A stretch of 64,000 nt of DNA from the NCBI GenBank assembly GCA_963580285.1, contig OY757026.1, positions 67,395,396 through 67,459,395 on the forward strand, read 5' to 3'. Source of the stretch: Lucinisca nassula (lineage: Eukaryota; Mollusca; Bivalvia; Lucinida; Lucinidae). How positions within the stretch are numbered: the stretch's first letter is position 1; each line of letters begins with the position of its first letter. This document shows, piece by piece, positions 2,661 to 59,548 of this stretch. The notes beneath the pieces are model-generated. The model was not told the origin of the DNA, searched no databases, and saw only the letters and a list, made by a program, of their open reading frames with translations. The position numbers and the translations under genes are program-made.

Positions 2661-3395
2661 TTTCCGCTTGTGATGTTTTCATTTGGGTTTAGGTATGCTT
2701 TACATGGGAGGTGTTGGGTAGTTGTATCGAATCGTGATCATTGCCTTCGCTTTCCACTTGTGATGTTTTCATTTGGGTTTAGGTATGCTTTACATGGGAG
2801 GTGTTGGGTAGTTGTATCGAATCGTGATCACTGCCTTCGCTTTCCACTTGTGATGTTTTCATTTGGGTTTAGGTATGCTTTACATTGGAGGTGTTGGGTA
2901 GTTGTATCGAATCGTGATCACTGCCTTCGCTTTCCACTTGTCATCACGTGAACTAGTCCGTGAAATGAAGACCCCCCTATACCCCACTTTATATAGAGAA
3001 AACTGGGGTTTACGGGCGTAAACATTATTTTTCTTATTTTTGCTCCAAGACATAGGTTGTGGGTACTCGTTAGAACCGCCTCAATGAGGCGGTTCTAACG
3101 AGCACCCACGACCTATGTTTGCAGTATTTACAAGAAAAATATCACGGATTTTCATCAGAAAAGTAGCCATTTTGGAGATGAGAAAAATGCACTATGTCGC
3201 ACGGGTGTGTTATCGTAATGTGATGTTTTAAATTGGGTTTAGGTATGCTTTACATTGGAGGTGTTGGGTAGTTGTATCGAATCGTGATCATTGCCATCGC
3301 TTTCCGCTTGTGATTTTTTAAATTGGGTTTAGGTATGCTTTACATGGGAGGTGTTGGGTAGTTGTATCGAATCGTGATCATTGCCATCGCTTCTA
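2661..3395 (+). repeat. 90-bp tandem repeat, split by a MITE
   Basis: Units begin at 2661, 2751, 2841 and 2931 (TTTCCRCTTG). The array resumes after the MITE at 3221 and 3301. Because 90 is divisible by 3, it makes a spurious repetitive open frame at 2637-2951. Confidence 0.9.
2942..3220 (+). mobile_element. MITE family F2 inside the 90-bp array
   Basis: Ends CATCACGTGAACTAGTCCGTG and GTCGCACGGGTGTGTTATCG. Central hairpin as in other F2 copies. Unit sequence stops at ACTTGT and resumes at TGATG, so at most one base (T) is duplicated. Confidence 0.85.
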
Positions 3396-3410
3396 TTTTG
3401 ATAAAGAGTG

Positions 3411-3566
3411 AGTGTTTAAGTTTTACGTCCGACCAACAGCTAAGGTCATACGGAGACGGGAGCTCGATTTAAAGACTCATCCGAAAGTCTGTAGAAGCCC
3501 GGGATCGATCCTACGACCCCTGGTTTACAATGCGAGTAGCGTAACCACTACACCACGGAGGCTTCT
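3411..3566 (-). mobile_element. SINE-3 (tRNA-derived)
   Basis: The complement reads GCCTCCGTGGTGTAGTGGTT (A-box) with a B-box-like GGATCGATCC, then the body CTTTCGGATGAGTCTTTAAA and the tail of ACTCA repeats. Confidence 0.85.
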
Positions 3567-4055: not shown

Positions 4056-7000
4056 CTATAGGAAAATGATAATAATCATCACAGTGGGCACATGACGTAA
4101 TTGTGACGTCATATCAACGTCCGTACAACGTCATGACGATTATGCAACGTCACATCTACGTCGGTGCAACGTCGTGACGTTGCACCGACGTTAATTTGAC
4201 GTTGCCCTAGCGACCTGTGTCTGCTGGGATGTTATATCCTTTTTTGACAAATATGGCCACGTTTTGCTCTAACCCCTTTAATAGTGAATAGCCTGGGTAT
4301 CAAATCCAAACAGATGCGGCAATTATTGTGACGTCATTTTTTTTTAAGAAATAGAATAAAATTTGTTTTAAATGTCATATGATAATTTAAATATTATATT
4401 CGTACTCATGTATTATAGAATTTATTAAACTCGTTGAGAAAAATGGCATAAGATGCTCGGCAAAGACTCGCATTTTACAACTTTTCCTCAGCTCGTTTCA
4501 TAAATTAATTAATACATGAACACTCATTCAATATCCTCTTAAGGATCGCAGGATCGATCCCGGGCTTCTTCAGACTTTCGGATGAGTCTTTAAACCGAGG
4601 TCCTGTCTCCGTAAACCTTAGCTGTTGATGGGACGTATAACTCAAACACTCACTCACTCAATGTCCTCTATATGTCACACTGTGCTGTTGTCCTAGTGCT
4701 CTATTTAGAGGGTCTCCAGTCCAATCACCCGGCACGCATCACCGTCTTGTTATTAACCCATTTTTTTCCAGAAACCCCCAAACGGGTAATTTGCAAACAG
4801 AGCAGGTCCAGATAAGACGCCGCAGAACGCGGCGTCTGATCAGGACCTACACTGTTTGCGAAAAGTTAAGCCATTTTCCATTAATTTTGTAATGGACTCC
4901 TGCTATATATAAGGTGGAAGATTCCATTTGGTACTCGTACAAAAGGGTTAAAAACCCTGTTTTGGGTGTTTGCGACCAGGAAGACAACGACAGGCCTGCT
5001 CAGCTTGACAGACTAGGGTATATATTATTTTTCTAAATTCTGCTCAAAAACATAGATGAGGCGGTTCTAACCTGTAGCCACCTAAATTTTTCATTTTTTG
5101 TTGTTGTTTTTTTGTTTTTGGTGTTGAAATTTCAATATAATTGATTAGGCATGTTTTCGTAATGTCACAGACTAAACTCCGTTCAGAAAATCTGATTCAT
5201 CGATTGTTTCGTTTCTTCCTTTTAATACTCATTTTATATGTTTTAGACCTGACCCTCCGCCGACTTCTCAACCAAGTTGTATGCCTCTGCGACAGTCAGG
5301 AAAGGCTGTGATTATTTGGAGAAAATTGCAAAAAAAGAAAGAAATGAGAGCACAGACTAAGTCCATTTGACAATTTATTGTCATAAAATAATAAATATTC
5401 AAATACAATTGATGCACTTTATATATAGATATGCAATTGCGACACACCTTATATTCGGATGGCTAGATAGAGGTTCACTAGGAACGGGGAACCACTAGCA
5501 CGATGTGCTGTCAACACTTGTCAAAAAGACTTATACCGATATCAGATGTGGTGCCACAGCTAATGATTTTCCATGAAGTGATCGTGCAAATATCGTAATT
5601 TCAAGAACAGTAATCACTTCTATATATGGTTTAAAAGGGTGTGTCGAATCTGTCAGAATGTTTTAATCTGTGAAAGAAAATTTGGATTTTGAAAATTTCT
5701 CCACATAATCACAGCCTTTCCTGGCTGTCGCAGAGGCATACGACTTGCTACAGAAGTCGGCGGAGGGTCAGGTCTAAAACTTTCCCACAGTGATGTATGG
5801 GCTAAAATGAGTATTAAAAGCGAGAAACGAAAAAAAAAAAATAGGTGTGTTTCAGGTTTCCCGACCCTACCTAAGTTTTAGGCCCGACCCTAAATTTTTT
5901 ATTGCCAAAAAAAAAAAAAAAAAAATCGCGGGGCGAAACGACTCGGAACTACGCGAGCGGTTGCGTGCGGTTTATTTGTTCTAATTCGGTCAGTTTCCGA
6001 GCGTTTCGGTGTTTACTACTACTATTTCCGCAGAAATGCTCTATACAGTGTATAAACAAAATAAAAAATTAAGATAAAAAAAAAAATTAAATCGACCTTC
6101 CCCACCTAATTTTTTTCAAGCTGAAACCTGAAACACACCTATTTTTTTTTTTTGGCCTAATACGAAAACACGCCTATACAAATACATTGTAACCTTTATC
6201 GCCGAAACAGTAAAAATTTAAAGATGAAAAATTGTGATATCTTTCTTATTTCTGTTCAAAATATAGATTGTTGGTACTCGTTAGAACCACCTCATCGAGG
6301 CGGTTCTAACGAGTATCCACAATCTATATTTTAGAGTTGAAATGAGAAAAATAGGCTTACCCCTGTAAACCCCAGTTTTACTATATAAAAGTGGGGTTCA
6401 AGGGGGTCAAAATTATATAGGCATGTTTTTGTGATGGATACAGATTTTCTGAATGGAGTTGTTTTTTTTAGCAAGAGTTTTGGTAGTTTAGATTATACAG
6501 AAACCTTAGGTTGTTTACTAGTCATTAGTGAACGTTGCAAGGGAGTGGCAGTTATTTCACACTATGTGGAGAAAAAAGCAATCCCTAAAGAATTCAAGGA
6601 TGCGTCAACTATCCACCTATTCAAAAGCAAAATAACCCTCAGATCTGTGACGATCACCGTGGCATCTCTTTATTGTCAACTGCTCGGAAATTCCTTTCAA
6701 GAGTCCTTCTTAACCGACTGAATGAACACCTTGAACAGTCAGGGCTCCTACATGTACCAGAAAGCCAGTGTCTGTTTTGGAAGGACAGACGAATGATTTA
6801 CCAGATCTTCACAGCAAGGGTACTGCACGAGAAATGCCAGGAACAGAACATGGACCCGTATATGGCCTTCGTTAACCTCACCAAAGCATTTGACACAGTC
6901 AGTCGTGAGGGCCTCTGGAAGATCATGAGGAAGTTTGGGTGACCAATCATGTTCAAAGCAATGGTGAGACAGTTCCACGATGGTATGCTTGAACGAGTCC

Positions 7001-10000: not shown

Positions 10001-13000
10001 GTGAGGGTGGATAGAAAAATCCGTCTCTCGGCAAGCCTCGTGATGCCGGACAGTGACCCTCGGGACGGATTTTTGCATCCACCCCTCACACCCATGTAAG
10101 ATTCTTATAATATCTCAAAAACAGTTACCCAATGAAAATCTGTGAAATTTTCTTACTGGTGTCCCAAACTAAGTTGAGAAATAAAGAATACCAGGTTCGT
10201 GTCATTTGATATCAAGTTTATCAGGCAAGGCTTTCAGAACGCTTGCAGAATAGCGAGGCTTGCGAGCGATTCTACATGCGTTCTCGAAGCCGAGCCTGAA
10301 AAACTTGATATCAAATGACACGAACCTGGTATTCTATTTATCAGTTAACCCCCCTGCAGTCAATTTAGGGATAACTGATACCGTCTGCTACATGTACATA
10401 TAAGCCATAAAATTCCATGAAGTAAACTGGACCACCTAAAGGTGATAAATGCCCCCGCCATATGCCTCCTTAGATAAATAATTTGTTTGACATTTGCAGC
10501 AGAAAGGCATACATTCTAACTAAACTAGAAACGGCAACATTCTCCAAGACACATATGGCCAAAATGTAAAAGTCGTTCAAAGGGTCATAATTGTGCAATA
10601 AGCGGCTGGATAAGAGGCCTGTTTCCATTATACCCATATTCAATGCATGTCTGACCTGTGTTGCAAGTTCCAATGCCCTGCGTAAAATACTGTAGGAGGA
10701 GTTGCGGGGACAAGAATAGTGCTACAAATTGTGACGTACGGACGGCGTACGTACGTACGAACAAATAGAGGCCTCCGTGGCGCAGTGGTTACGCTACTCG
10801 TCTTGTAAACCAGGGATCGCAGGATCGATCCCGGGCTTCTCCAGACTTTCGGATGAGTCTTTAAACCGAGGTCCCGTCTCCGTATGACCTTAGCTGTTGG
10901 TGAGACGTAAAACTCAAACACTCACTCACGTACGAACAAGGGCAAAACGTACGTGCGAACGGACAAGAGCAAGACTTTATGCCCCTCCCCACTGCGTAGC
11001 GGGGCATAAAAATACAGTAAAATTCCTATATTAAGGCCACACCTTTTGGAATGTTCAAAAGTGGTTTGTAAGACCACTTTTGCACAGTCCCAAAGGTGGT
11101 CTCTGACCAGAGGACAGTGTATGCAGAACAGACAAAAAAAAAAAGAATAACATTAACATGTAAATAAGCTTCTAAAAGCAGATTTAGTCTTAATTTTAGG
11201 ATGTCTTAATAGCGGAATCTTACTGTACTTGGTTAGCCTACTACAGAACTTACAAGATTCAACATGGCTCTCGGAAAATCTCTCCAACTTTTCCCAAAAT
11301 CTTGTTTTAACACTGCATCGTCGTCTTTTGTATTGCAAGCCTCTGACTTTCTCTGCAGCTGTAATTTGGCACTGCCTTGGAAATTAACATGTAGCACATG
11401 ACGAATACATGTCTATATACAGTGAAATTCCGCTATTAAGACCACCCAAAATTAAGACTAATTCTGCTTTAAAAAGATTATTTAGTAGGTTGCAGTTATT
11501 CTTTCTTCGTGTTTTCTGCATTCAGTGTCCTCTGGTCATGGACAACCTTTGGGACTGTTCAAAATTGGTCTTAAAGACCACTTTTTAACAGTCTCAAAGG
11601 TGGTCTTAATATAGAAATTTTACTGTAGTTTGATCCCCTTGAATCCTACATTTACATAGTGGATGCCAATGTCCTGTGAAACGGGAGTATACAGGGGGTA
11701 TTATTTTTCTTACATGTATTTCTGCTCAAAAACATAGATTGTGTTTTCTCGTTAGAAACGCCTCAAAGGCGGTTCTATCGAGAACCAACATGTTATCTTT
11801 TGAGCAAAAATAGGACAAGTAGATTTTCTTCTGAAATTTGTCATTACTTGATGATGGAATTGTTATTATATTTGAACAGTCGTATTTTCGTAATGAAAAT
11901 GAAAGACCTTTAAAGATTGTCTTTGGAAACTGGGAGAAAATCATCATCACATCACGTGAACAAGTTTGTGAAATAAAGCCACCCCTACCCTACTTTATAT
12001 GGAGAAAGCTGGTGGGGTTAACGGGGGTATACATTATTTGTTATTTCTGCACCAAGACAGAGGTTGTAGATACTCGTTAGAACCGCCTCACGAGCACCCG
12101 CAGCCTATGCTTGTGTGTAAATAAGAAAAAATATCACGGACATTCATAAAAAGAAGCCATTTTGGAGATGTGAAAACAAATGCACAATCTCGCACGGATG
12201 TGTTATCGTTGAAGAGTTTCGAGCTTCCGTGGACTGAACAAATCTACATGCTTAAACCACATCGGAACTAAGGGCGAGGGTTGTGGCCACGCAAAATCGG
12301 TTAAAGCCCACCAACCCATCCCAGTTATTGCCATTGTATATTTTGCATGTATGTCCTGTTAATTAAGAAATAATCTCCACGTACCGTGTGTTATCGTGAT
12401 TAACACACGGTGTTGGAGGGCAGATTGCGAAATATACCGTGTGTTAATCACGATAACACACCGGGTGCGTGAAAATTATTTCGATTCTAACATGATGCTA
12501 AACTGAAATACAGTAGTAACAAAGCGTTATCTTGGGGACTATTTTGCAGCGGATGTCGACAGAAGGAAATGTTTACATGCAACGTCACGATGACGCCAAA
12601 ATTGCACGCACCACGTTGACGACGTGAATTATCGCATATTTGCAAACGCTGACGTTTCCACTGGGTTCAATGGGAAAAACGTTAACGTCATGTTAGAATT
12701 TGTGTTATTTTAAAAAGCCGTCTGGATAGCCGTGTGGTCAAATATGTCCTTGGAGCGTTTTGCTTGTAATGTTTCTTGTAATGCCGTTGTAATTTGTGCG
12801 TCCTTCACTTTGACGGAAATTTATAGGTAATTGTATCGATTCCTGGGCCCAGTTGTTCAAAGCATCGTTAGCTTAACGAGCTCGTTAGTGGTCATATTGT
12901 TAACTCTTCTAGCAAGTACAATATTGTAAATTTTGGTATTTTTGCTGAAAAAATGTGAGCAGCTTTTGCGTCCGCAAAAGCTGCTCACATTTTTTTCAGC

Positions 13001-16000
13001 AAAAATATTAGCCTATTTGCCATAATAAATGATCAAAGTTTTAACGATACGTTAACTAACGACGTCGTTAGTTTTGAACAACTGGCCCCTGATCGTTTGT
13101 AGGATCCCTAAAAGTAGTTAGCCTCGTCTCCATAGACCAACTGACTCATCAGTTTTCCCGATATAATCTATATATTTGTCGAGGTTCCGTTTTGTGTAGT
13201 CAATTTGTGGATCCGGTCAGATGTGACAGCTATCGAAGATTTCCTAACCGTCACAGCAATAATGGGATGATGCAATGTTGTGAAATCGCAAAACAAAACG
13301 TGTTGACTTCAAAGAACAAAAGACATCAGAGTACATGTTAGACAGTATATTACATACTTCAAATCAGTTAGGTTACATATACAGTTCACTACATTATACA
13401 GCATTTTTGTCAAAAAAAGACAAGAAACAATATTATACAAGCATACCCAAAAGCAGTTACTATTCCACACACATATATAAATTACACTAATATCCATAGG
13501 GGTAAGAAACATGGTGAGCTCGAATAACTATTTTATCAAATACAACCTGAATTATTCGAGCTCACCATGTTTCTTACCCCTATGGATATTAGTGTAATTT
13601 ATATATGTGTGTGGAACAGTAACTGCTTAAGGGTATGCTTGTATAATATTGTTTCTTGAAAAACAGAAGTAGAGGGAATGATCTGGAATCGATACAATTA
13701 ACTCACAACTTCCATCAGAGACACCAAAGGGAAAGAAACACAAACATGAAGCAACAGATCCCAACGGAAATACCAAAAGCGGAAAGCCAAGAGGACAGTT
13801 ACTTTCCCACAAAATGGCCAAAAGGCTATCCAAAATAAAATCATATAAGCGACACAAACACCCAAAGACAAGTCATAACAAGATTAACCGCGACAGAAGA
13901 ACCGCCTTGGAACGGTCAGTGGAAACGAATTCCACTGGGGGTGGGGGGGGGGAGACTTTAATCGATTTTACGTGGCCACAATCCTCGCCCTTACCTCCGT
14001 CACTATTTAAACAAATAATTTGTACAGTCCGCATGAAGCCTCCAAACTTCAAAGACATACCATAACAAAAATAAACCGCGACAGATGAAACGAAACGAAT
14101 TCCACTGGGGGGGGGGGGGGGGGGGGGGGCACCCACTCTTTTTATATCGAAGACAGATTTTAACGAAATTGGGTGCTGAAGTCATCGCGGTTATAAATTT
14201 TTCTTTATCTTTATTTTTTATATCTTTAATTTTTGCAGTATAAATTTCTAATTTTTCCAAAACTAAGACGTCTTGTCCATTATCCGTTTCGGTTTCAAAA
14301 CTTTGGGGCTTAGACACACTGATGAAGATTAAATTTCAGAAAGGCCTCTGTATCACTAAATTTGGTATAGTTACGCATTAATACTAAGTCACCATCAAAT
14401 TCAGGTTCCGATAGACCTTGTTGCAGAAGAGATTTAAGTCCAGTATTGAATTTTGAAATTAAATCAGAATGACGTCTATAAAATTTTAAAAAGGCTTATT
14501 ATTATTATTGCCGGATTATTACAGGGTCCCTGATGAGGCTTTATTAGCCGAAACTACGTAGTATGACCCATCTTCTTTCTTATGAATGTTTTCATTGCTC
14601 TTAAAGGAACTCATTTTTGATTTTTATTTGACGGATTAAATATTGACATTACTTACTTTGATGGTTCGATCAGTCAGATTTATCCCCTAAACTTCAGTTA
14701 AACAAGGCAAATTCCTCTGGTACCGAGGCCCCCTTTTTGGATTTACATTTATCTATTGTATATGGATTTGTTTCTTGCAAAATTTATGATAAACGTGATG
14801 ATTTTGATTTCGAGATTGTAAATTTTCCTTTCTTGGACGGTGATGTTCCTCGTGCGACATCGTACGGGGTTTATATTTCTGCAGTTAGTTCGATTCGCTA
14901 GAGTGTCTAGTCATGTATCCGACTTCAACATTCGTAATAAATTATTAACCGCTAAACTTCTTAATCAGGGGTATGGGTATCATAAACTACGTAAAGCCTT
15001 TTCTAAGTTTTAGAGACGTCATTCTGATTTGGTTTCAAAACTCAATGTTGGACTTAAAACACTTCTGCTACAAGGCCTATCGGAACTCGAACTCTATGGT
15101 GACTTAGTATATAAATTTAGAAAAATACATGCCCGTAATGACTTTAGTACCCAATTTCGCAAAATCGTTCGTCGATATATGAAGATTGGGTACAACATAA
15201 ATGTTATAAAACAGACTGCATGCATGGTGGTTAACACAATCACGGTTGGCAACTTTGCTTCCCTCTTTGATTGCACATCGGTGGGTCGGGCTTAAGATTA
15301 TATGACGGTTCCGGTCGGGCCCCTCGGTGTCTAACTGTTGGTTTTCTTTTGCTCCAGCAATTCTGTTGTTGTATGCTGTCGAGTCCTCAACCTTGTTTCA
15401 TCTTTGTAGTTTTTTTATTTGTATGTTCTCGGAGATGTTACACTGATGAGTTAGGAAGCCTTCATGCGGACTAAACAAAATTAGTGTATACCGCTACAGA
15501 GGTAAGGGCGAGGATTATGGCCATGCAAAATCGATTTAAACCCCCCAGTGGAAATCTTTCCACTGACCGTTCCAAGGCGGTTCTTCTATGATGCTTTATT
15601 TACGTTGTAGTTTGTTACTACATACTGTGTGGATCACTTGTGTCTTTTTATTTTGGATGGCCATTTTGCCATTTTGTGGGAAAGTAACTGTCCTTATTGC
15701 CATCCTTTGTTTAGGTTTCCATTATGGTCTGGTCGCTTCATTTTTGTGTTTCTTTCCCTTTAGTGTCTTTGATGGGTGGAGTAAGTTAATTGTATCGATT
15801 CCTGATCTTTGTTTTACTTCTACTTTGCGTAGTTTATCATACCGATAACTCTGATTAAGAAGTTTAGCCGTTAACAATTCATTACGAGTGTTGAAGTCAG
15901 TCACATGACTGCACGCTCTAGCAAACCGAATCAATTGTGAAATATAAACGCCATAGGATGTCGCGCGTAGAACATCACCATCCAAAAAAGGAAAGTTTAC

Positions 16001-19000: not shown

Positions 19001-22000
19001 CGGGTGTGTTATCAGAATGAGATAGCAAATTTGCAAAAACAGATTAGGAAACTTTTAGCGAAATAATATGTTAACTTTTGATTTATCCAATTGACATGCT
19101 AGATATCTAACACTCTGTGTTCAGTTGGTTTATAGCTGGGTAGCCTAGCAGCTAGGAGTAAAAGTGAATAATATGTAATAAAAATCATCTGTTTGCACTA
19201 AAATGAACAGTGCACATGTATAGAAGTTTAGCTATTCTAGTTTCTCTTGCTCAATTTTAATAATCCTAAGATTTGAGACTCTTCCAACTCCAAATAGGCC
19301 TATGAACTTCAGCCTTTAGCTGAAGAGAGAGCTATAGTAGATAAACATGTTTGTCATTCAGCCACCAAGCTTGCTGTGTGTGTTACCGAAGGCCAAGACA
19401 AGCTTCCTACGCTATACTGGTTACCAAAACTTCATAAAAGACCTTACAAAGCACGGTTATTGCAAATTCTAGCTCTTGCACTACCACTGAACTTTCTAAA
19501 TTATTAACTTCCTGTCTTACTGCTATTAAAACGCATGTGGTTAAATATTGTGATAAAGTCTTTGAAAGATCAGGAAGAAATCTGTTTTGGTCTATCAAAA
19601 ATTCGAATGAGGTTTTAAATAAATTGAAATCCAGACATTTTCGTGCTTCAAGTCTGTCTACTTACGATTTTTCCACTCTTTATACTACACTTCCTCATAA
19701 GCTTATAAAAGAAAAGCTTAATGATTTAATTGAATGGGCTTTTCACAGAGAAGATTCTCTCTATCTTGCATGTAATGTCAGAAATGCATTTTTTACTTCC
19801 AAAGAGCATAAGAATTATACACTTTGGTCATGTCAGAAAGTGTGTGATGCCCTCACCTTTCTACTTGACAATATTTATATTAGATTCGGTACTAAGTTAT
19901 TTAGACAAAGTGTGGGTATTCCGATGGGTACGAATTGCGCACCTCTTGTGGCTGATCTGTTCTTGTATTGTTATGAAAGAGACTTCATGTTGTCGCTATC
20001 CATTGATAACCAATCTGAAATTATTGAAGCTTTTAGCTCCAGTTCTAGATATTTAGATGATTTATTAAATATTGATAATACCTATTTCGATGGTTTGATC
20101 AGTCAGATTTACCCCCCAGAACTTCAGTTAAATAAAGCAAATTCTTCTGATACCGAGGCCCCGTTTTTGGATTTACATCTATCTATTGTAGATGGGTTTG
20201 TTTCGTGCAAAATTTATGATAAACGCGATGACTTTGATTTTGAGATTGTAAATTTTCCTTTTTTGGATGGTGATGTTCCTCGTGCGCCATCCTATGGCGT
20301 TTATATTTCGCAATTAATTCGATTTGCTAGTGTGTGTAGTCATGTTACTGACTTCAACACTCGTAATAAATTATTAACGGCTAAACTCCTTAATCAGGGT
20401 TATCGGTACCTTAATCTACGCAAAGCCTTTTCAAAATTTTATAGACGCCATTCTGATTTAATTTCAAAATTCAAAATTGGACTTAAATCTCTTCTGCAAC
20501 AAGGTCTATCGGAACCCGAATTTTATGGTGACTTAGTATATAAATTCAGAAAAATATATAACCGCAACGACTTCGGCACCCAATTTCGTAAAATCATTCT
20601 TCGATATAAAAAGATTGGGTACAACATGGATGTTATACGACATACTGCATACATGGTAGTTAACCCAATCACGGTTGGCAACTTTGCTTCCCTCTTTAAT
20701 TGCACGCCGGTGGGTCAGGCCTCAGATTCTATGACGGCTCCAACGTAAAGGCTTATTGAGAATTAGAGAGATCTAATTCAAGGTAATGTTGGTTGGTGCC
20801 TGATGCTCTGTCTCTGGTCGGGCCAATCGGAGTCTAACTGTTGGTTTTCTTTTGCTCCAGCATTTCAGTGGTTTCTTGCTCTCGAGTCCTCACCGTTGTC
20901 TCACCTCTGTGGTCCTTTGATTTTTTGTGTTCACGGAGATGTTGCACTGATGAGTTAGGAGGCCTTCATGCGGACTGAACAAATTATTTGTCTAAATCGC
21001 GACGGAAGTAAGGGCGAGGATTGTGGCCACGTAAAATCGATTTAAGCCCCCCAGTGGAAATCTTTCCACTGACCGTTCGAAGGCGGTTCTTCTGTGGCGG
21101 TTTATTTATGGTGCTGTTTGTTACTTACTGTGTGTATCACTTGTGTCTTTTTATTTTGGATGGCCATATGGCCATATTGTGGGAAAGTAACTGTCCATAT
21201 GGCCTTCCTTTGTTTAGGTTTCCATTATGGTCTGGTCGCTTAATGTTTGTGTTTCTTTCCCTTTGCTGTCTTTGATGGGTGGAGTAAGTTAATTGTATCG
21301 ATTCCTGATCTTTGTTTTACTTCTACTTTGCCATTGCTAAGAAATTGATAAAGGGGGAGTTCCAAATCTGCCCACGCACAGATTTTCTTGAAACTTCATT
21401 TGTTTTTTACTTGAGGACTATCAACTATATATATAACTTTGTTTCGTTTGATAAATTACTATAGGTCTCAGGAGAGCTCCCTGGGGTAGTCCCCTGTTGA
21501 GGTCATACACACCTGTGAACTTTTCAGTCTTAAATCAATAGGTATCATTATTTTCAAATTTTGTTGCTTTGATTGGCAACAGAACTCTATAAGGATTAAA
21601 CTAATAGAAAAAATGTAAATGTGTCTATGTCTTTTAATTTTTCTGATAAATTTATTTACAAAATTTCTTCTACTTTTCATGAAAATTTATAAAAAAAAGA
21701 GATTTTCATCATAAGTTTTAGATGTGTTACTGATCTTGTCACCCCAAGATATTGCATATAAAAAGGGCCACATATATCCTCTATATAGCAAACAAATTTC
21801 AAAAAAGTCAGAAACCGGTAACATTGTTTTTGATTGCTAGATATGGGTTCAGGTCTATTTTTGTGCTAAAATCAGTTACAATATAAGGGGACAAGATTTC
21901 CTTAAAGTGTATTTTTATTGTGTTTTAAAGGTCATTTAGAGCCACCTTATCATACAAAACGTAGCATAGGCATTTATGTAACCCCCCCCCCACACACACA

Positions 22001-28000: not shown

Positions 28001-31000
28001 TATATGACATTTGAAACGCTTTTTATTCACGACTGTTTAACAAAAATGTCAATATTCCGCCATAAGTAAACGCGACGTCGTTAATGGCGTCGTATATGTA
28101 ACGTTACGGGACCTATCTAGCTAATTTGCATATTTAATCCACTAGTGGATTATCGAATTTATTACATGGCGTTATTACTCTCTCAGACGCGACGTTTTAT
28201 GATAAAATGGTTTTAACCATGCTCGCCATATTTTATCTTATGCCATCATGCCAGGCCAGATTTTATTTTATGCTGTCTCAACATCTTGTTGAGATAGAGC
28301 TCAAGAGAGAGAGATTTAAATTAGTTAGGGGAACTGAGGAAGGGGTATATTTTTATTCATGTAAGGATCACTTAATAAAAAGTCACATCTCATTAGACTT
28401 AATAAGTCTACCTTTTTACCTGTTTGTGTCTATTTTGTCGGCGTCTGTATATATGTTGAGAAATTGTCCCCCTCCCATGTACCCTCCGGCGACGCCCAGG
28501 GCTCCTAGACAGTATATTATACCTGTTGGGAAGTAAGCAAAACCAAAATCAATTCAAAGCTTTCCTGTCACTCAAAGCGCATTTCGTCTCGACTGCGTTT
28601 AGCATAACGCGATGTTACAATCCTGTCTTACGTCCGTTTTTTTTTTTCTTGCGTTTGTTGGTTCATAGTTCGTGCGTATATTGGTTCATAGTTCGTGCGT
28701 ATATTGGTTCAGGCGTTAGCATTTGTGTCAACCCTGGCGTATACTACAGCCAACCCTCTTTAAACCTACATTCGTTATAGCCGCCAAAACCGTTACAGTC
28801 GAACTTCGATGGCTCGATCACCGATGGCTCGTTTACCATGGCTGGTTCGAACTCGTACTTGAGCCCCTAGGGAAATCCTCAAAATAAGAAATGGTGGGGG
28901 ATGATTAAGGAGATTTTAGTCTTTTATCTTGCAAATGTATGCTGTGTGTACTCATTAGAATCGCCTCGGTGAGGCGATTCTAATGAGTACACACAGCATA
29001 CATTTTCGTTATATAAGATCGAAAAGATGTTCAAAAGCATCACGTTATGCCTCCTGACAGTCACCCTCAGTGGCTCGAACTACCCCTGTCTCGAATAAAT
29101 TTTCATGATCCCAAAGAGGTTTGAGCCATCGAAGTTCGACTGTATATCGCCCATGTCAATGAAATGACTACTTTGCTAAAAGCTTAGCCTAGGTTTCGAG
29201 CGGCGTGCGCTTCTCTCGGATTGGAAATGCACAAATCGAGTCCATAGGCATAAAAGATTCTTGTAATCTTATATTCCAAGAAACAAATGTTATAGATATT
29301 TGTAGGAATCCATTCTAATAAATGTCTATAACATTTGTTTCTGAGAGTAATGATGGGGAAAAGGTCGTTTATTACCTTTCGTCCTTTATAAAGGCAAATT
29401 ATTCATAACAGCACAATAATAGGGAAAACTATCAGTTACCCCTATATATAGTGCATTGTAACACATTGACCTGATAAAGAAATGCTATCTCAGGACAAGT
29501 GAGCTTTATCACGTCAACGAGACATTGCACTTTTTGAATGAACCGGACAACCGGAAATATGGCCAAAATGTTACTGTTACTAGAAAAAACGAAAACAAAT
29601 TACATTGAAAATTATCAAAAGAAAAATAACGGTCAGTTGATAGTAAATATACTGGTCGATTATATTCCGCAGCGGTATGTTGGGACGCACTGAGGACAAA
29701 CGGTAAGTGATAGAAAATTGCCAATTTAAAGGGTTTACAAGGGGATAAACTGATAAATAGAATAATACCAGATTCGTGTCATTTGATATCAAGTTTATCA
29801 GGCTCTGCTTCGAGAACGCATGTAGAATCGCTCGGCAAGCCTCGCCTGATAAACTTGATATCAAAAGCCACGAACCTGGTATTCGCTATATACTGCCGTT
29901 TTAACGACGGGTCCTCTGTAATCTGGTCCGAAGTGGCGCGAAATAGCACTCAACATACACACATGCTCCCACTTAACCCGCGTGGAAAATGAACCAGATC
30001 GATACCAGAACAACACCTACGCAAATATCTGAGTGACCATCGAAAATTTAGACAAGCCCGTATATCAATATTTTCAAGCACATCACAGAACTAAAAATGG
30101 TAGGGTTATCCTTTGTAAACAAGAATTATACCACACAGTTGTTAAAGTAAGGGTTATTAAAACGGGGTGGTGTTTCTGGGGCAGACAAGCTAGGCAAATT
30201 AGGTATCATTGTTGATCTGCAATCATTTTCCAAATTCGACAACGGAATCAATGATCCCAAAAGACCTGAAAACCACATCACGAAAATAGGCCTATATAAA
30301 TTTGACCCCCATGAACCCCACTTTCATAAAGTAAAACTGGTGTTTACCGGGGTAAACCTTATTTTCTTATTTCTGCTCTAAAACATAGATTGTGGGTACT
30401 CGATGAGACAGTCCTAACGGGAACCCACAATGTTAGTTTTGAGCAGAAATAAGCAGAATTAAGAAACAGAATAAAACGCAATAATTCATCTTAAAACTTT
30501 AATTTCTCCGTGAAAAATTTACGCTGTGATTCAAAATGAGACAATCAAGTGTAACCAATTTGCCAGTGGCCTTGAAAACCAGTGTTTCAAACATCGAAGT
30601 AACAAATGTTCCATGTTCTATAGAGAATGCATATCATTTCTTCTTCAGCTGCGAACGTTTTACAGTCCAAAGAAACGAAATGCTCCAAAACTTGGCAAGG
30701 TTTTCCCGCGTTTAACGAACCAAATTCTCCTCAATGGCGATGAAACTTTTAGTCTTGAAGAAAACATTGAAATTTTTACGGTAGTACAGAAATTTATCGT
30801 AAAAACTAAACGGTCTGCAAACTAGGTTCATGATCACCACATTTTTGCACAAGAAGATTTCTTTTTTAATCACAAGCCGATAGGTGCGTCTGGGATAGTT
30901 AGGTCTCCATTCATTGCCCGATATCGCGTCTTATAATGTTTTCATCACTTTTTTTCCTTCAATTGTCATAGTTAACTTCAACTTAAGACATGTAATTATT

Positions 31001-45500: not shown

Positions 45501-48500
45501 GTCCAGCAAGGGCGGACAGACCCAATAACAGACCGTCGAGACCATATTAGACAGGTTGTGGAAAACAACCTGAATTCGATTCAAACGAAGAAGTTACCGG
45601 GACTTCAAGTTCTTATTAATACAAATCGATAAATAATAAAAATCAACTTGTGGTCGACAACAAGGCCGACAAACTATAGTTTATCAACGACCTTTGAGAG
45701 TTCAACGTTCAAGCGTGGCAAGACTATTCCATGTTTTAGGGAAAGCAGGTTTCGCATGTCTTTTTTCACGGGATTTTAAAAATATAAATGAGTGTTTTGA
45801 TAATGCCAGTATGTAGAAGTCGTGGTCAAGTGATTAGTATGATGCAGTACGAATCTCATTTAAACTATATCGACCAATGTAAAATCCCAGCTGAAGGCGA
45901 CTTACCTAAAACACGGACTAACCCAAAATAAAAAGTGCAGTCACGTCTCACTGCGTTTTGAAAGACTATAGTTTGCAGCAGTGTGAGAGAAGTGGTTCAC
46001 CCTAAGTGAACGTATAATCTGGCCAGTCGCGTTTTTGTGTTGTTTCTTTTTCTTATTTTTTGTTGTGTTTGTTATTTGCTTCTGTAGACACTCATGTCAC
46101 CCCGGTCCGAGCACAGAACATTGTTTTGCTTTCTGGACGGACGTCGTGAGTGGGCTATAGAAGCAAATAAATGTGATTTTTTGTATTAGTATTGTTGTAT
46201 ATAGATACTGTCACGTCATTCATTTGATATCTTTCTTGTGCCTTACCCCATAGATGCCCGTACACCTGTCAGAAATCACACTCGGTTGTCTTGTCAGCAT
46301 GGGGGGTTGCGAGACGCCGTAAACCCACATGTAACAGTCCGACACTCGCACCGCTTTGCCTGGGCAGGCTTAGATCCTCTGAGCGGTTTACCAGTACTCG
46401 TGTGCGGGTCGGTTTCAGCTCTGCGCGAAGTATCATGCAGCCCATCTATTTCTCCTAGCCCCGATGGGCGGGGACGAAATTTACCGCCAGTAAAAACACT
46501 AAAGAAAGGAACATTTTTTTGTTGTTGTTTTGTTTGGTGTTTTTGTTTGAATTTAGGTTTTACGCCCCGTCAGCACTATTTAGGTCATTTTGGAGACGTT
46601 GCTCCCAATTTTGTGGCACTTTTACAAGACAACTGTCCGGCATCACGAGGCTTGACGAGTGACCAACTGATGCCGGACAGTGATTCCGATTGACCGATTT
46701 TTCTACCTATCCCTCACACCCATCTTTTGCTTGTATATCTTTAAGTACTGAGAGTTTTTTTTATATATATATAACGCAGTCACTTCGATTGTCGACGTCC
46801 TCCATATTTATGACCGTAATGCGGCTTTTTGACGTCACTGTATTTGCAGTGACGTCAAACTTAATGACAGCGTTTATGACGTCATTTTCAACCAGTGCCC
46901 ATCAAATACGTGAAAATTCTCGAGTTTTATCCTATCCCTTGATAGGATAACCTGAGTAGGATAAAAATTTCTATCCCAGGGTTACGTCTAGGTCTTAGCC
47001 TACTTACATGGTGTAAGAATAAAATCTTAATGGGTGTGAGGGATGGATAGAAAATAAGGATCATTGAGGGTGTTCAGTATATTACGAGCTCTAGGGGCCG
47101 TTTTAGTTTTTGTTTGTTTGTTTTTATTTTGTTTGTTTTTTATTTATTGTTTTATTTCGAGCATCCATGCTATACTAATGTTTACGTCCACCTGAATGTG
47201 ATGACGTCATTTTCTAGCTATCGGTGTCATCTAAACGACAAGGCATGCGAAGTCCTACACTTCGAAAGTGCATATTATGCATAACATTTGTATCTTACCC
47301 GTATGAGGATAAGGAGGGTGAGGTAAGAGTTTCTTACCCCGTAAAATATTGCATTTCATTATTTGGCATGCAAGAAAACTAATTCTTTCTGTCTTGGTTT
47401 ACATTTTTTTCTGAAGAAATTTGTAATAATTATTTTGTTTATAAATGTTTGGTGTGGCCTATGTACATGTGTTTATTTTTTTTTTCTAAACATACCTGGA
47501 ACACGCTGAATACGCAGGTCCAGAAAACAAACCATCTAACGGAGTTGAATATTTGAATGCATCTGAAAATTAAAAAAAAAAAATAAAATAAATAAATAAA
47601 ATAAAAAATGAATGAATGAATACATAAATGGAGGGCAGACCATATCTTAGTTTTATTCAAGAAGTTAAGCCATTACAAAATACACTTATTCAAATATATC
47701 GGTAAAATTTTACCACCACAATGAATTTTTTCAGATCAATATCCTGACATTTTTCATATTTCTGCTCAAAGCCATAGCATGTGGGTACTTGTTAGAACCG
47801 TCTCGGCGAGACGGTTCTAACGAGTACCCACATTCTCTGTTTTTGAGCAGAAATAAGAACAATACTCTATACCCCTGTAAACTCCAGTTATCTTATATAC
47901 ATGTATAAGTGGGGTTTAAGGCGGTCAAAATTATAAAGGCGTGTTTTTTATGCGAAGTCAGAGAAGCCATACACGTAGCACATAGCGAAGACTCTGACAA
48001 GACTGCGCGGATGAGCAGGCTGATTTGAGTCTTCGCTAGATACACATGTTCGACGCTACAGTTTTGCTGGGCGCTGTCCATATGGGTTGTTACTATTCCG
48101 TAGTAAAATTAGGTTAGCCCCCGCCCGCTACAATGAACTTTCTTTCAACAGAAACTGACATCTGCCGTTCTTGAATCATCCGCGAAAGGGGGACCATAGA
48201 AAAGATATCATGCACGTCTTCACAAAAAGCGCTGGACTGTTTGCGAAAACTGGCTTTTTTGCATTTTGTCCTGCAAAAACTTCTAGTCTGTCTGACAAAT
48301 GCCCTGTGAATCTTAGCAAAGAAATTGAATATTCTGACAACAAATATGCCTTTGGTCCTGCAGACTGTAGAAAAGAGTTTAGTCTGTCTGGCAGATGTCT
48401 TGCATCTGACAATAGAAAAGATCAGTCTCCCCGAAAGGACGTTGCCGAAACCGATAGGTATCTTTTGTTTGTTTGTGTTGAGAATTGACGCCCCCGAAAA

Positions 48501-51500
48501 CACTATTTATGTGATTATGGAGACATTCCTTTCAATGCCGTTGGGCTTTTACCCGACATTGCAATGAAATGACTTCTCAAGCCATACCTCTAAAAGAAAC
48601 TGTTGGGGTTTAAGGAGCGGTCCGACTCGCAACACTTTTCATGGGCAGGCCGGTTTACCAGTACTCAAGTTCGGTCGGTTTAGCTCTGTGCGGTTGCACC
48701 ATGCAGCCCAATCATTTATTCCAGGGGTGCAAATGCTCGTTGGTAAAACACAAGCTGTAACATTGTGAAAAGAAAAGGATACGCATTCAGGGAAATGACT
48801 CTTTCAAAAATATTTTGTCTCCCTCACCAAAAGGGGTCTACTCACTTAGCAACAGGTCATGTTGGAACTTTGTGATAACCGAAGGATAGTTTTTGTCGAT
48901 TCTCAATAAATACCTATGCTGTGGGTAATCATTAGAACCGCATCTACAAGGGCTATCCCTGGATAAGATAGCCTGGGTGGGATAAGACTTTCTATCCAAG
49001 GTTTAATACCAGGATTTCTTTATCTGGTGTGCAAGAATATAAGAATCTTATATGGGTGTGAAGGGTGGGTGGAAAAATTCGTGCCGAGGGTCACTGTCCA
49101 GCATCACGATGCCGGACAGTGATCCCGAGGGACGGATTTTTCTATCCACCCCTCAAAACCATATAGGATTCTTTTTCTTGCATACATGTACCTTCCATTT
49201 CTATTGCGAATTTTTAATGCTGCTGTCACTTCGGTTTCCGACCTCCGCCATTTTGTGATGACACGACAGGAATGTTTAGTGACGTCACGCATGACGACGA
49301 CGCGCATGAGGTTGTAATCAACCAGTGCATATATCAAACACGCGATTATATACGATTTTGGGTCGGAACACCAGGGTCAGAACATAAATTTTTATCCCAG
49401 GGTAAAATCACGGATTTCATTGCATGGTGTGCAAGAAAATTATTTCCCATTTCTCAGTGGGACTCAGGTTAAGGAATAGCAAACAGGGATATAGGGGAGA
49501 CCGGGGCTAGTTGGTCCGAAAATTGCATTTTTTAAGCTGCTGACATAAATATTCATTAGCGTGTAATACTTATACATTATGCAACTAGTATAATCTATTC
49601 TCCACCTTATCTCATATTTTCACGTCAGGAAAATGACAGATTCTTACAAATATTACTGTTTTCCATGACGAGGTAAAATGGAACAACTAACCCCACTATC
49701 GCGGTTAGTTGGTCAGAGCCGCGGGGTAAGTTGGACCGACCTGGATTCAACGAGAAAATCAGGAAGTAATAATGGGTCGATAAATGCCACTTTTGACAAA
49801 AAATCTGAGAAATTACGTGGCTTTAGTAAAATTGCAATAGATTGCCGGGTGATAATCTTAACACAAATTCCTAAGAAGATCAGCCAACTGTGCATTTTGT
49901 TAGTTATTTTTCTCAAAAACCGCAAATTTGATTGGAAAACCCCATTTAAAAGTCTTACCGTAGAGTAGACCGGGGCTAGTTGGTCCTAAGATTATAATTT
50001 GTCTTCAAAATCTGGGTCTAATATCTGTTTCTCAGAACGATTTTGGTACTATGCAACTTGTTCAATAATTTGCTGCTGTTTTTCATTCAGAAAATGCCAG
50101 GTTCTAAAAAATACAAATGCTTTTTCGACTGACCAACTTACCCCGTCGCGAATGGACCAACTTACCCCGACCCTAGCGCCTGGTAGATCTTCACAAATGA
50201 CAGGAACGTCATTGAATTTAGAAACATCAAATGTACTCATCTAAATACCTTATAAAATGAGCTTTCAGGAAAAATATAACTTTTCATGGTTTGTTTTACA
50301 CACAAAAAAGAAAAAAACAAATGAATCCAAGTGTGATAAAGTCACTTTTGTGGTACAAAATCAGTTTTTGTTCTCTAAAATGTTTACGCCTTTCTTGATC
50401 GCCATCTACTTTTCTTCAGAAAGTGTGTCACGATGAAGCATTCCATTGAGCCAAATCATTTTGCCATGACCCTTCTCAGTTCAGAGAAATGGCGCTCGGA
50501 CCAACTTGCCCCACGGACCAACTAGCCCCGATCTCCCCTATTCAATAAAAATGTAATCATCATCTGGAAGCAACAGAGAACTAAAACATGTGGATTGTGC
50601 TTTTGTCTGCGCTAGGTTAGATAGTTTTGGGCAATCATTAGTGACCCACAAATATTTTCTAAATTCAGCAGTGGAAGCACTGATCCAAAAGGGTGAGAAA
50701 ATATTACCCATTAACCCAGCCAGAAAAGAATGCCAGGCCAACGTCGGGCCGACAGTGATACGAAGTGGTCGCTGTCGGCTCGACGTTGACCCGGTGTTTC
50801 GTATTGGTATTGCCTTGTAAAACAAATTGAAGAAACTATCATAATCAATCCATTCCCGATAAAAGCCTGAGCGATGACCTTGATACTTGGTATGCAGCAC
50901 ACTGGACTCGGACCTTAACAAGTTTGTCCAAATGATGACCCTTATTTGATTCGGTCAATTTGGCCTTTCTATGGAAAAAGTCAAACAGTAGATATTTTCA
51001 TTTTATTGTATGCCTATTACATTAGACCTGATTCATACAGTTGGTTACATGAACTTCCGTCAACTTTATTCCGGTTGCCTCCGGTTTTGTATTATTAAAC
51101 TTGTTCTCACAGACAAATCTGGCCCCGCCCTTCAGGGCTTGGAGAATAGACTGGAGTGCATTATGCTTCCACGCAGAGCTGAAACCCACCGCACATGAGT
51201 ACTGCATGGTTAATCGCTTAGAAGGTATAAGCCTGTTCAGGGAAAGGGGTGCGTAGTTGGACCGTCCCTGCATATAAACCCGACTGGTTGTTTTGGACGG
51301 TAAGACTTGAGATGTTATTTCATTACGAAAACAAGCCTATACAAATACATTGTAACCTTTATCGCCGAAGAAATGAAAATTTTAAGATGAAAAATTGTGA
51401 ATTTTTTTCTTATTTCTGCTCAAAATATAGATTGTGGGCACTCGTTAGAACCGCCTCATCGAGGCGGTTTTAACGAGTACCCACAATCTATATTTCTCAA

Positions 51501-52837: not shown

Positions 52838-53465
52838 AGACTGCAAGAATCATACACGGTTGTGGGTAGTCGATGGAAATATCCGTCCAGAGGATCACTG
52901 TCCCGCATCGCGAGGCTTGCCGAGTAACGCCGGACAGCAGCGATACCGAGGGACAGATTTTTCTGTCCACCATCCACAACCGTGTAAGATTCTTTTTCTT
53001 GCATACCTTTCGTTTATGAGAGTGGATTTTGTTTATTAAATTACGATAACACTCCCGTGTGACATAGTGCATTTTTCACATCTCCAAAATGGCTACTTTT
53101 CTGATAAAAAAAAATCCGTGATATTTATCTTATAAATACTTCAAACATAGATTGTGGGTGCTCGTTAGAACCTATGTCTTGGAGCAAAAATAAGAAAATT
53201 GGTGTATACACCCTTAAACCCGAGTTTTCTCTATATATAGTGGGGTTTAGGGGGTGTTTTTTCACGGACTTGATCACGTGATAATGCAACGACTTCGATT
53301 TCCGACGTCCGCCATATTCTGACATCAATGTACATGCAGTGTATGTTTGAAGGTTTAACGTACTCGTCAAACACGCGAACTTGCTGGATTTGTATCTTAT
53401 CACTGGATAGGATATGAATTCCTGTCACTGGGTTGTCCAGGATTTTCTTACCTGGTGTGCAAGAA
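52838..53465. mobile_element. Family-E element split by an F2 MITE
   Basis: Hairpin half at 52838-53010 (GAGGATCACTGTCCCGCATC), F2 at 53040-53282, then the other half (ACGACTTCGATTTCCGACG to CCTGGTGTGCAAGAAA). Just upstream of the first coding exon. Confidence 0.7.
53040..53282 (-). mobile_element. MITE family F2
   Basis: ACGATAACACTCCCGTGTGA to CACGGACTTGATCACGTGAT. One hairpin arm is missing. Confidence 0.8.
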
Positions 53466-54035: not shown

Positions 54036-54477
54036 CCGCCTAGTCAATCGTATCTGCGACTACTATTATACTTCCCATTCAAACATATGTAGACTGTCCA
54101 ACTAGGATCAGAGATATGCAAGAATTCTGGTAGGGCAAAGCGGCTCATGACTGAAAGAATATGACGTTATGAAATGCATTATAGACAGCGTATGGTCCAC
54201 AAAGCTCAGAAACCTTCCGCTCCTTATTGCATTCTGACTGACAAAAAGGCTATATCGGGTTGAACGCATTAAGGGAAGGGTATATCCTAAATCGTCCATG
54301 AAGCTATCAACAGGCTACCACAAGTGGATTGAGTGTGTGCTTGAGTTTTACGTCCCAGCGACAGGTAAGGTAATACAAAAACGGAACCTCGGTTTAAATA
54401 CGTTCTATAAAAGGGTTTTCCTTTGGAAGCAAGGAATACACCACAGAACTGAAATATATGAAGTGTACATGTTTTCT

Positions 54478-54523
54478 GGGCCAGACTAGCTAGTTTCGGC
54501 CAATTAGGCCTCTTCAGTGACCC
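54478..54523 (-). ncRNA. Hammerhead ribozyme, unit 1
   Basis: Minus strand, from 54523: stem I GGGUCA with UGGCCC, core CUGAAGA (position 7 may be any base), stem II GGCC-UAAUU-GGCC, GAAA, stem III CU-AGCU-AG, then UC. Expected cleavage between 54484 and 54483. All conserved core bases are present. Confidence 0.85.
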
Positions 54524-54738
54524 TCAGATATTTTCAAAATTCCACAATGGAATCAATGATCCCAAAGGACAAGAAAATATAATCTACACTATGATATAGA
54601 GCAGGGAGACGTTTTACCGCCGCCACACATTCCCACACATCAGCTGTAGTGATGCTAAATACGTTCTATAAAAGGGTTATCCTTTGGAAGCAAGGAATAC
54701 ACCACAGAACTGAAATATATGAAGTGTACATGTTTTCT

Positions 54739-54784
54739 GGGCCAGACTGGCTAGTTTCGACCAATTAGGCCTCTTCAGTGACCC
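54739..54784 (-). ncRNA. Hammerhead ribozyme, unit 2
   Basis: As unit 1. Two substitutions keep the fold: stem II becomes GGCC/GGUC (G-U wobble), and the stem III loop becomes AGCC. Core and cleavage triplet are intact. Confidence 0.8.
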
Positions 54785-54999
54785 TCAGATATTTTCAAAA
54801 TTCCACAATGGAATAAATGATCCCAAAGGACAAGAAAATATAATCTACTCTATGATGTAGGGCAGGGAGACGTTTTACCGCCGCCACACATTCCCACACA
54901 CCAGCTGTAGTGAAGCTTAATACGTTCTTTAAAAGGGTTATCCTTTGGAAGCAAGGAATACACCACAGAACTGAAATATATGAAGTGTACATGTTTTCT

Positions 55000-55045
55000 G
55001 GGCCAGCCTAGCTAGTTTCGGCCAATTAGGCCTCTTCAGTGACCC
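55000..55045 (-). ncRNA. Hammerhead ribozyme, unit 3 (probably inactive)
   Basis: Same layout, but the base after stem III is G where a U is required (GGC in place of GUC), so cleavage should be lost. Confidence 0.7.
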
Positions 55046-55447
55046 TCAGATATTTTCAAAATTCCACAATGGAATCTTGATCCCAAAGGACAAGAAAATG
55101 TAATCTACACTATTATGTAGGGAAGTGAGACGTTTTACCGCCGCCACACATTCCCACACACCAGCTGTAGTGAAGCTAAATACGTCCTATAAAAGGGTTA
55201 AAGACTTACCCAAAAATGTGGAAAAACCCGGGATCGAACACACGACCCCTGGTTTATGAGGCGAGTAGCATAACCACTACACCATGGGGGTAACATGTGG
55301 ATTATAATCCGCCATTTTGTGAGTTACCAACCGTCTCTGGGACAGTGAAAGCACTAACACTCCTCTCATCTGGTACTGCGTCAAGATAATGTACAATACC
55401 TGCATAGATCTTCTTCAAGTTGCAGAACAACTGATCATTCGAGAATT

Positions 55448-55898
55448 TTCACATTATGTGGGGCATAAGAACCGAATATGAGTGTGAGGGGTGGATAGAA
55501 AAATCCGTCCAGAGGGTCACTGTCCGGCATCACGGGGCTTCCCGAGTGATGCCGGACAGTGATCCTGAGGGACGGATATTTCTAGCCATCCCTTACACCC
55601 ATATACATGTAGCTTTCTTTTTCTTACATACATTCAATTTCTTACCGCGGATTTTAATGCTGCAGTCACTTCGAGTACCGACGTCCGCCAAATTGTGATG
55701 ACAGTACAATAATGTTTAGTGACGTCACGTAACGTGCTGTGACGTCAACCTTAACGACGGCGCATACGATGTCGTAATCAACCAGTGCATTTATCAAACA
55801 CGCGATTATATTCGATTTTGGGTCGGAACACCAGGGTTAGAACATAAATTTCTATCCCAGGGTGAAATCACGGATTTGCTCGTCTGGTGTGCAAGAAA
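55448..55898. mobile_element. Family-E element, complete
   Basis: Hairpin GAGTGTGAGGGGTGGATAG to ATCCCTTACACCCATAT with inner GGTCACTGTCCGGCATCAC, then AGTGACGTCACGTAACGTGC and the end CTGGTGTGCAAGAAAA. Best copy of the family. Confidence 0.85.
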
Positions 55899-59244: not shown

Positions 59245-59548
59245 CATCACGAAAACACGCCTTTATAATTTTGAGCCCCATGAACCCCACTTTTATATAG
59301 TAAAACTGGGGTTTCCGGGGGTATACCTTATTTTTCTTATTTCTGCTCTAAAATATAGATTGTGGGTACTCGTTAGAACCGCCTCGATGAGGCGGTTCTA
59401 ACGAGTACCCATCGAGGCGGTTCTAACGAGTACCCACAATCTATGTTTTGGGCAGAAATAAGAAAAATATCGCAGTTTTTCTTCTTAAAATTTTGGTTTT
59501 TCGGCGGTAAAATTTACACTGTATTTGTTTAGGCGTGTTTTCGTAATG
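59245..59548 (+). mobile_element. MITE family A with duplicated hairpin arm
   Basis: CATCACGAAAACACGCCTTT to AGGCGTGTTTTCGTAATG. After a perfect hairpin, CGAGGCGGTTCTAACGAGTA is repeated. Confidence 0.92.

Follow-up and report, generated by a model that had tools for sequence, protein, structure and literature searches.

The window analysed here is a stretch of 64,000 nucleotides from the clam Lucinisca nassula, and it harbors on its minus strand a short tandem array, which is flanked on both sides by SINE sequence (Table 1). TRF reported for the window a period of 261 with 3.1 copies and 95% matches at 54395-55200, and together with the unit alignment this agrees with an earlier note on this DNA, which had described three tandem units of 261, 261, and 260 bp. 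The aligned units vary in 18 of 261 columns (pairwise differences of 9, 14, and 13) and have GC contents of 0.406, 0.414, and 0.415. They are joined by a partial unit, whereby 22 of the 23 bp of 55177-55199 match the opposite array end (54395-54417). The open reading frame list of the window contains no frame of at least 120 aa that overlaps the array, and the array encodes no reverse transcriptase, which rules out that it constitutes a Penelope-like element itself, since such elements encode this enzyme and in most cases also a GIY-YIG endonuclease. TRF and BLAST against the window yielded direct units only and no LTR layout in the array; a plant-type LTR retrozyme was rejected on this ground and because the hammerhead motifs described below are of type I and not of type III.

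Table 1. Coordinates of the array, its host SINE, and related features within the window
Feature	Position	Strand	Remarks
Putative retrozyme array	54395..55200	-	three units of 261/261/260 bp plus partial unit of ~23 bp; TRF, alignment
Unit 1	54395..54655	-	last in RNA sense; unit alignment
Unit 2	54656..54916	-	unit alignment
Unit 3	54917..55176	-	first in RNA sense, 260 bp; unit alignment
Partial unit	55177..55200	-	RNA-sense 5' end of array
Unit 1 hammerhead motif	54478..54523	-	every core position kept; predicted cleavage between 54484 and 54483
Unit 2 hammerhead motif	54739..54784	-	every core position kept; predicted cleavage after 54745
Unit 3 hammerhead motif	55000..55045	-	broken: U16.1 to G, triplet GGC
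TTTAA direct repeat, RNA-sense 5' junction of array	55198..55202	-	
TTTAA direct repeat, RNA-sense 3' junction of array	54394..54398	-	
Host SINE, head	55203..55290	-	tRNA-like; box A-like and box B-like sequences
Host SINE, tail half	54330..54399	-	BLAST against window
Host SINE target-site duplication, upstream copy AATCCACATGT	55293..55303	-	
Host SINE target-site duplication, downstream copy AATCCACTTGT	54320..54330	-	
SINE copy, empty site	10772..10928	+	same SINE family without array
SINE copy, empty site	3406..3561	-	same SINE family without array
Partial SINE copy, empty site	4554..4659	+	without array
Related hammerhead motif (14530 site)	14524..14569	+	CUGAUGA, GUA triplet, one stem I mismatch
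Relic, part of unit	30102..30272	-	old, single; hammerhead destroyed
Relic, part of unit	50571..50704	-	old, single; hammerhead destroyed
Longest Penelope-like reverse transcriptase fragment	19296..20748	+	open frame 19438-20748, 436 aa

Several further features were recorded in the window. At 35806-39081 (minus strand) lies the 1091-aa open frame of a LINE, in which Pfam recognises an endonuclease and a reverse transcriptase domain. Thiodiazotropha MAGs provide its closest named relatives and are frequent among them, with Pinctada and Dreissena proteins ranking lower. Exons of an OATP (organic anion transporter) gene occur on the minus strand at 42145-41891, 39483-39358, 24771-24616, and 9426-9821; they are separated by mobile elements and together span a distance of more than 30 kb. 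The first two were found only via consensus peptides, and ~12 kb separate the first of the recognised exons from the array, which is located upstream. A repeat that contains GGCGGTTCTAACGAGTACCCACAATCTATATT or a near variant of it occurs at 51419-51573, 59389-59436, 44300-44365, and elsewhere; it is present in either orientation and resembles a miniature inverted-repeat element. A 90-bp unit is tandemly repeated at 2659-2941 and 3219-3392 (plus strand), the former array being located within a 121-aa open frame. Near the host SINE, a repeat at 55465-55800 contains an internal inverted repeat of 80% (55476-55604) and has relatives at 9802-10108, 49039-49340, 46632-46898, and 52861-53030.

Hammerhead motifs in the array units

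On the minus strand, each unit contains a 46-nt stretch that is laid out as a type I hammerhead, with stem I GGGUCA/UGGCCC, CUGAAGA, stem II GGCC-UAAUU-GGCC, GAA, and stem III ACU/AGU. The motif had been claimed in the earlier note with the same stems I and II and CUGAAGA, and both the sequence and a descriptor scan agree with this; stem III, given there as two pairs, comprises three by count. The cleavage triplet is GUC in units 1 and 2, intact as stated before, and mutated to GGC in unit 3, where cleavage should thereby be lost. The suggestion that the changes in unit 2 keep pairing is borne out for stem II (GGCC/GGUC, one pair turned into G-U), but not for the other change, a single base of the stem III loop that destroys a palindrome. 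Among the units, the ribozyme is conserved no better than its surroundings, with 3 of 45 hammerhead columns being variable vs. 15 of 216 elsewhere in the unit.

In order to weigh a chance likeness to a hammerhead within an unrelated tandem repeat, both strands were scanned with a descriptor in which the core letters were fixed and at most one mismatch in six was allowed in stem I, and 150 dinucleotide-preserving shuffles served as a control. The scan of the window yielded three sites, namely units 1 and 2 of the array and a site on the plus strand at 14530, whereas the shuffles yielded two in total; an initial, tighter descriptor had returned units 1 and 2 only. With a looser descriptor there were four window sites (the fourth being unit 3 in another pairing) vs. 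30 in the 150 shuffles. The motif can thus arise at random, yet the stricter control leads to an expectation of ~0.013 sites per window.

The Rfam search of the whole window gave no match at gathering thresholds, which speaks for chance as well. Below threshold, Hammerhead_1 aligns full-length to the units: to unit 1 over model positions 1-45 of 45 (22.2 bits, E 0.0016 in 121 bases; gathering score 34) and to unit 2 end to end (19.9 bits, E 0.086 in 1051 bases; gathering score 34), whereby unit 1 was absent from the Hammerhead_1 matches of the 1051-base search. In the latter search RAGATH-1-hammerhead matched units 1 and 2 with 18.4 and 16.6 bits, respectively (gathering score 56.3). A covariance-model match above threshold had been set beforehand as a test of the motif, and formally the outcome was negative, since all full-length matches are sub-threshold. 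This weighs little, because units 1 and 2 keep all core positions and have a relative at 14530, where the same core occurs again with a compensated stem II pair. Altogether, a chance likeness is extremely improbable, and it was rejected on the descriptor scan against shuffles.

Folding predictions were less favorable for the single ribozyme. In 52-nt pieces taken alone, the hammerhead of unit 1 has -12.1 vs. a minimum of -16.1 kcal/mol and that of unit 2 has -9.4 vs. -16.7 kcal/mol, and in free folds of 58-nt pieces the hammerhead was not seen. In a circular 261-nt unit 1 the hammerhead costs 2.8 kcal/mol (-67.1 vs. -69.9) and in a circular unit 2 it costs 6.2 kcal/mol. The predicted circles are 62-63% paired, and that of unit 2 reaches -65.8 kcal/mol compared to -56.9 (sd 4.7) for 200 shuffles; for animal retrozymes, a self-pairing “above 70%” is given in PMC4918200.

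Stem III and its loop form a perfect 10-nt palindrome both in unit 1, where it reads ACUAGCUAGU, and in the 14530 hammerhead, where it reads ACUACGUAGU with a different centre; those of units 2 and 3 are non-palindromic. Due to such a palindrome, two ribozymes can pair via a 10-bp stem III. In free co-folds of 52-nt pieces the dimeric hammerhead was the minimum in four of five pairs, i.e., for unit 1 with itself, with unit 2, and with unit 3, as well as for two copies of the 14530 site; the exception was unit 2 paired with itself. When the loop of unit 1 was replaced, 58 of the 256 possible 4-nt loops gave a dimeric minimum under the criterion applied here, including all 16 palindromic ones. 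In these models the palindrome thus helps the dimer without being required, and loops other than the natural one allow the dimer as well, which makes the palindrome argument somewhat weaker. In a two-unit transcript (unit 2 followed by unit 1), the dimeric form has -148.4 vs. a minimum of -153.7 kcal/mol (5.3 above), and a single monomeric unit 1 ribozyme has -150.9 (2.8 above the minimum). Constrained folds in which the pairs were enforced yielded unchanged energies. From the modelled folds, dimeric ribozyme action appears likely. Dimeric cleavage is said to be possible for Penelope-like hammerheads (PMC7761336), and axolotl hammerheads are described to cleave far better in dimeric constructs (PMC7229834).

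The host SINE and the junctions of the array

BLAST of the neighbourhood against the window revealed that the two array flanks are parts of a single minus-strand SINE. Its head contains a box A-like (TGGTGTAGTGG) and a box B-like sequence (GTTCGATCC); an ARAGORN scan of the window detected no tRNA, so that the term “tRNA-like” refers to these letters. When the array is removed, the host SINE agrees with the copy at 10772 in 126 of 157 aligned positions and with the copy at 3406 in 125 of 156. The duplication flanking it has 11 bp with one mismatch, a quality that was reached by 4 of 300 shuffles, whereas the duplications of the copies at 10772 and 3406 were matched by none of 300.

Within the host SINE, the box A-like and box B-like sequences are located upstream of the array and in the same orientation. 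It might therefore be suspected that the hammerhead units belong, together with a Pol III promoter of tRNA origin, to a single composite element that is driven by Pol III, as in SMalpha of Schistosoma, which has been published as SINE-like with a type I hammerhead (PMC8490949); tRNA sequence is also said to be carried by schistosome repeats (PMC4918200). However, the copies at 10772, 3406, and 4554 (partial) run through the site without an array, as does a copy at 52466 that consists mostly of tail and extends scarcely beyond it. Furthermore, the array is the younger part, since its units differ in 9-14 of 261 columns compared to ~20% between SINE copies. The host SINE also has two TTTTT runs between box B and the array, whereas T runs of at least 4 are missing from the copies at 10772, 3406, and 4554; the two runs are possible Pol III terminators, at which transcription should end ahead of the array. 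Neither relic of the unit, searched together with its flanks (29950-30500 and 50400-50900), matched a SINE copy. A composite element is thus very unlikely and was rejected, because the SINE predates the array and site-crossing copies in this one window lack it. Since SINE copies run uninterrupted through the site and the host SINE keeps its own duplication, the array is a secondary, later insertion in the SINE. A retrozyme within a SINE was not found among the literature matches listed (by title).

The nearby empty copies pin both junctions of the putative retrozyme to a few bases. The sequence is GTC-TTTAA-ACC at the empty site (with ATC for GTC in one copy) and GTC-TTTAA, array, TTTAA-ACC at the filled site. 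As the unit edges themselves carry AA and TTTA, the duplication made by the array may have any length from 0 to 5 bp; the criterion used here for the retrozyme class is a target-site duplication of more than 4 bp when present, and for Nematostella repeats a duplication of 15 bp is given in PMC4918200.

Both array ends fall at unit columns 239-261 and thus comprise the same ~23 nt of the unit, whereas the predicted cut follows column 172, about 67-89 nt away. This distance argues against a cleaved linear monomer that was copied from its ends, and from the position of the ends we infer a circle or an uncut multimer as the template. With random placement, ends as close as these would occur in about 1 of 11 cases (estimated as 23/261 for this single array). 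For a lizard Penelope-like element, unprocessed RNA is reported as the dominant substrate in vitro, and Penelope-like elements may have an optional “tail” of 30-40 bp, which is ascribed to internal initiation of reverse transcription (PMC11167929). The partial unit of ~23 nt looks similar to this tail, a resemblance that is drawn from one array only.

Relatives of the unit and a Penelope-like family

The two relics have 68-73% identity to the unit over 140-177 positions, with a best stretch of 75% over 105 positions for the relic at 30102. The related hammerhead motif at 14524-14569 is located in a stretch of ~116 bp that is flanked by inverted Penelope-like reverse transcriptase fragments, and it is identical to the array hammerhead in 39 of 48 positions (81%). 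Compared to the array, a stem II C-G pair is U-A and a stem I U-G pair is U-A at this site. Pair covariation among the four ribozymes remained within the shuffles (116 of 500 reach the counts), which is too small a set of sequences for this measure. In Rfam, the 14530 site obtained 19.7 bits with Hammerhead_3 and 19.8 bits with RAGATH-1-hammerhead, far sub-threshold and amid chance-looking matches. A covariance model (R1) was built from four sequences, namely those of the array units and of the 14530 site, which it recovers by construction. It further detected in the window the broken relic at 50616-50661 (E 0.00086) and on the plus strand two marginal sites at 16781-16846 (E 0.022) and 14303-14368 (E 0.19). 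The two marginal sites lie in an 88-bp repeat with 92% identity, within or beside Penelope-like fragments.

The reverse transcriptase fragments are located ~34-40 kb from the array, and the copies in the window look partial. Their family is a candidate mobiliser of the array. We take it to be Penelope-like from the style of its motifs YDFSTLYTTLP, GIPMGTNCAPLVADLF, and RYLDDLL. Pfam assigned no family to the longest fragment at E 0.01; RVT_1 was matched at E 0.019, and 5 of 30 aligned members had E values of at most 0.1, which is far from confident. The predicted structure of the 436-aa fragment has a mean pLDDT of 46.4, too poor for structure searching, and PDB searches for the family gave no meaningful match. 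A pattern search for the reverse transcriptase led to 19 matches in prokaryote contigs without a confirmed relative and to none in virus contigs; the shared ribozyme core pattern had no match in prokaryote or virus contigs, which says little outside these groups. Among the 120 relatives of the reverse transcriptase that were listed, two are named, both being Candidatus Thiodiazotropha MAGs. Since Thiodiazotropha are symbionts of lucinid clams, these MAG matches probably represent host contamination.

Interpretation and comparison with known systems

The array might have become an ordinary satellite, which was inserted once and then spread by unequal exchange, and whose hammerhead is a relic of no further import. 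Unequal exchange can make a trimer, unit 3 has a broken ribozyme, and the units do not conserve the ribozyme in preference to the remaining sequence. On the other hand, a related ribozyme and two relics are dispersed in the window, the junction in the SINE is clean, and every core position is kept in two of the three ribozymes, which makes a satellite origin unlikely. With good confidence, we regard the array as a metazoan-type non-LTR retrozyme that would have been moved via a circle or multimer by the enzyme of an autonomous element and was inserted in an older SINE. This identity had been proposed before, and it is supported by the unit size, the tandem layout, the type I hammerhead, a GC content of 41%, and the missing LTR layout, as well as, with respect to transposition, by the filled vs. 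empty SINE site and the relics dispersed in the window. For animals, PMC7229834 (Cervera and de la Pena, 2020) describes type I hammerheads that reside in tandemly arranged repeats of 150-450 bp with a GC content below 50% and without LTR; the array shares the unit size range, the GC content, and the type I hammerhead, the latter below the Rfam gathering score. It is best filed, on its sequence features, as a further member of this known class. The family itself is probably new, as the earlier note had suggested, which is plausible because retrozyme sequences are called species-specific in PMC7229834.

Cleavage, circularisation, the template form, dimeric action, and the mobilising enzyme are the steps that we infer. 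The array would be a non-autonomous, non-coding retroelement, whose transcripts would be cut by type I hammerheads into 261-nt units, and these could be circularised by a host ligase. Probably, the ribozyme would be most active when two units dimerize via the palindromic stem III. Reverse transcription may be carried out by the enzyme of an autonomous element, most likely of the Penelope-like family in the window, and insertion would occur as a short tandem array, here as a trimer that entered the older SINE. In this context, animal retrozymes are described as being expressed as circular RNAs of ~170-400 nt, and Penelope-like elements as strong helper candidates with the circular RNA as the proposed template, the return to DNA being unproven (PMC7229834). 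The ribozyme adjoining Penelope-like fragments provides a concrete helper family for testing, and together with the clean filled vs. empty site it makes both the template and the helper question testable.

More tentatively, and with less than even probability, the hammerheads of the retrozyme and of the Penelope-like family might be of one lineage, in which selection maintains a 10-nt palindromic stem III that makes the ribozyme act as a dimer of two units; the array would then have been written by internal priming of the Penelope type, with a circle or a multimer as the template. If so, the partial unit of ~23 nt would correspond to the Penelope “tail,” and the genome would be a test case for the enzyme that moves animal retrozymes.

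The array resembles the metazoan retrozymes described from Acropora, Mytilus, and axolotl (PMC7229834) in its tandemly arranged units, which measure a few hundred bp and carry a type I hammerhead, in its GC content below 50%, in having no LTR layout, and in the co-presence of Penelope-like elements. Compared to the mussel retrozymes of that source, its unit is shorter (261 bp here, ~350-390 bp there); most conserved loop-contact nucleotides are described as missing in the mussel ribozymes (PMC7229834). The pairing of the predicted circles likewise lies below the value cited above for animal retrozymes (PMC4918200). With the hammerheads of Penelope-like elements the array has in common the type I, a very short stem III, and possible dimers, and a relative of its motif adjoins Penelope-like fragments here. 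In contrast to these elements, whose hammerheads flank an ORF, the array repeats a 261-bp unit and has no reverse transcriptase; furthermore, the non-conserved nucleotides of helix III are usually missing in the described motifs, while the array motif allows a stem of 3 bp to be drawn. As in SMalpha of Schistosoma (PMC8490949), a short repeat with a type I hammerhead adjoins tRNA-like sequence, but here the tRNA-like SINE is the older element that was entered by the array. Plant LTR retrozymes (PMC4918200, PMC7761336) are likewise non-autonomous and hammerhead-bearing; propagation by circular RNA is described for them and would apply here by inference, and they differ in carrying mostly type III hammerheads in LTRs of ~350 bp, together with PBS, PPT, and 4-bp target-site duplications.
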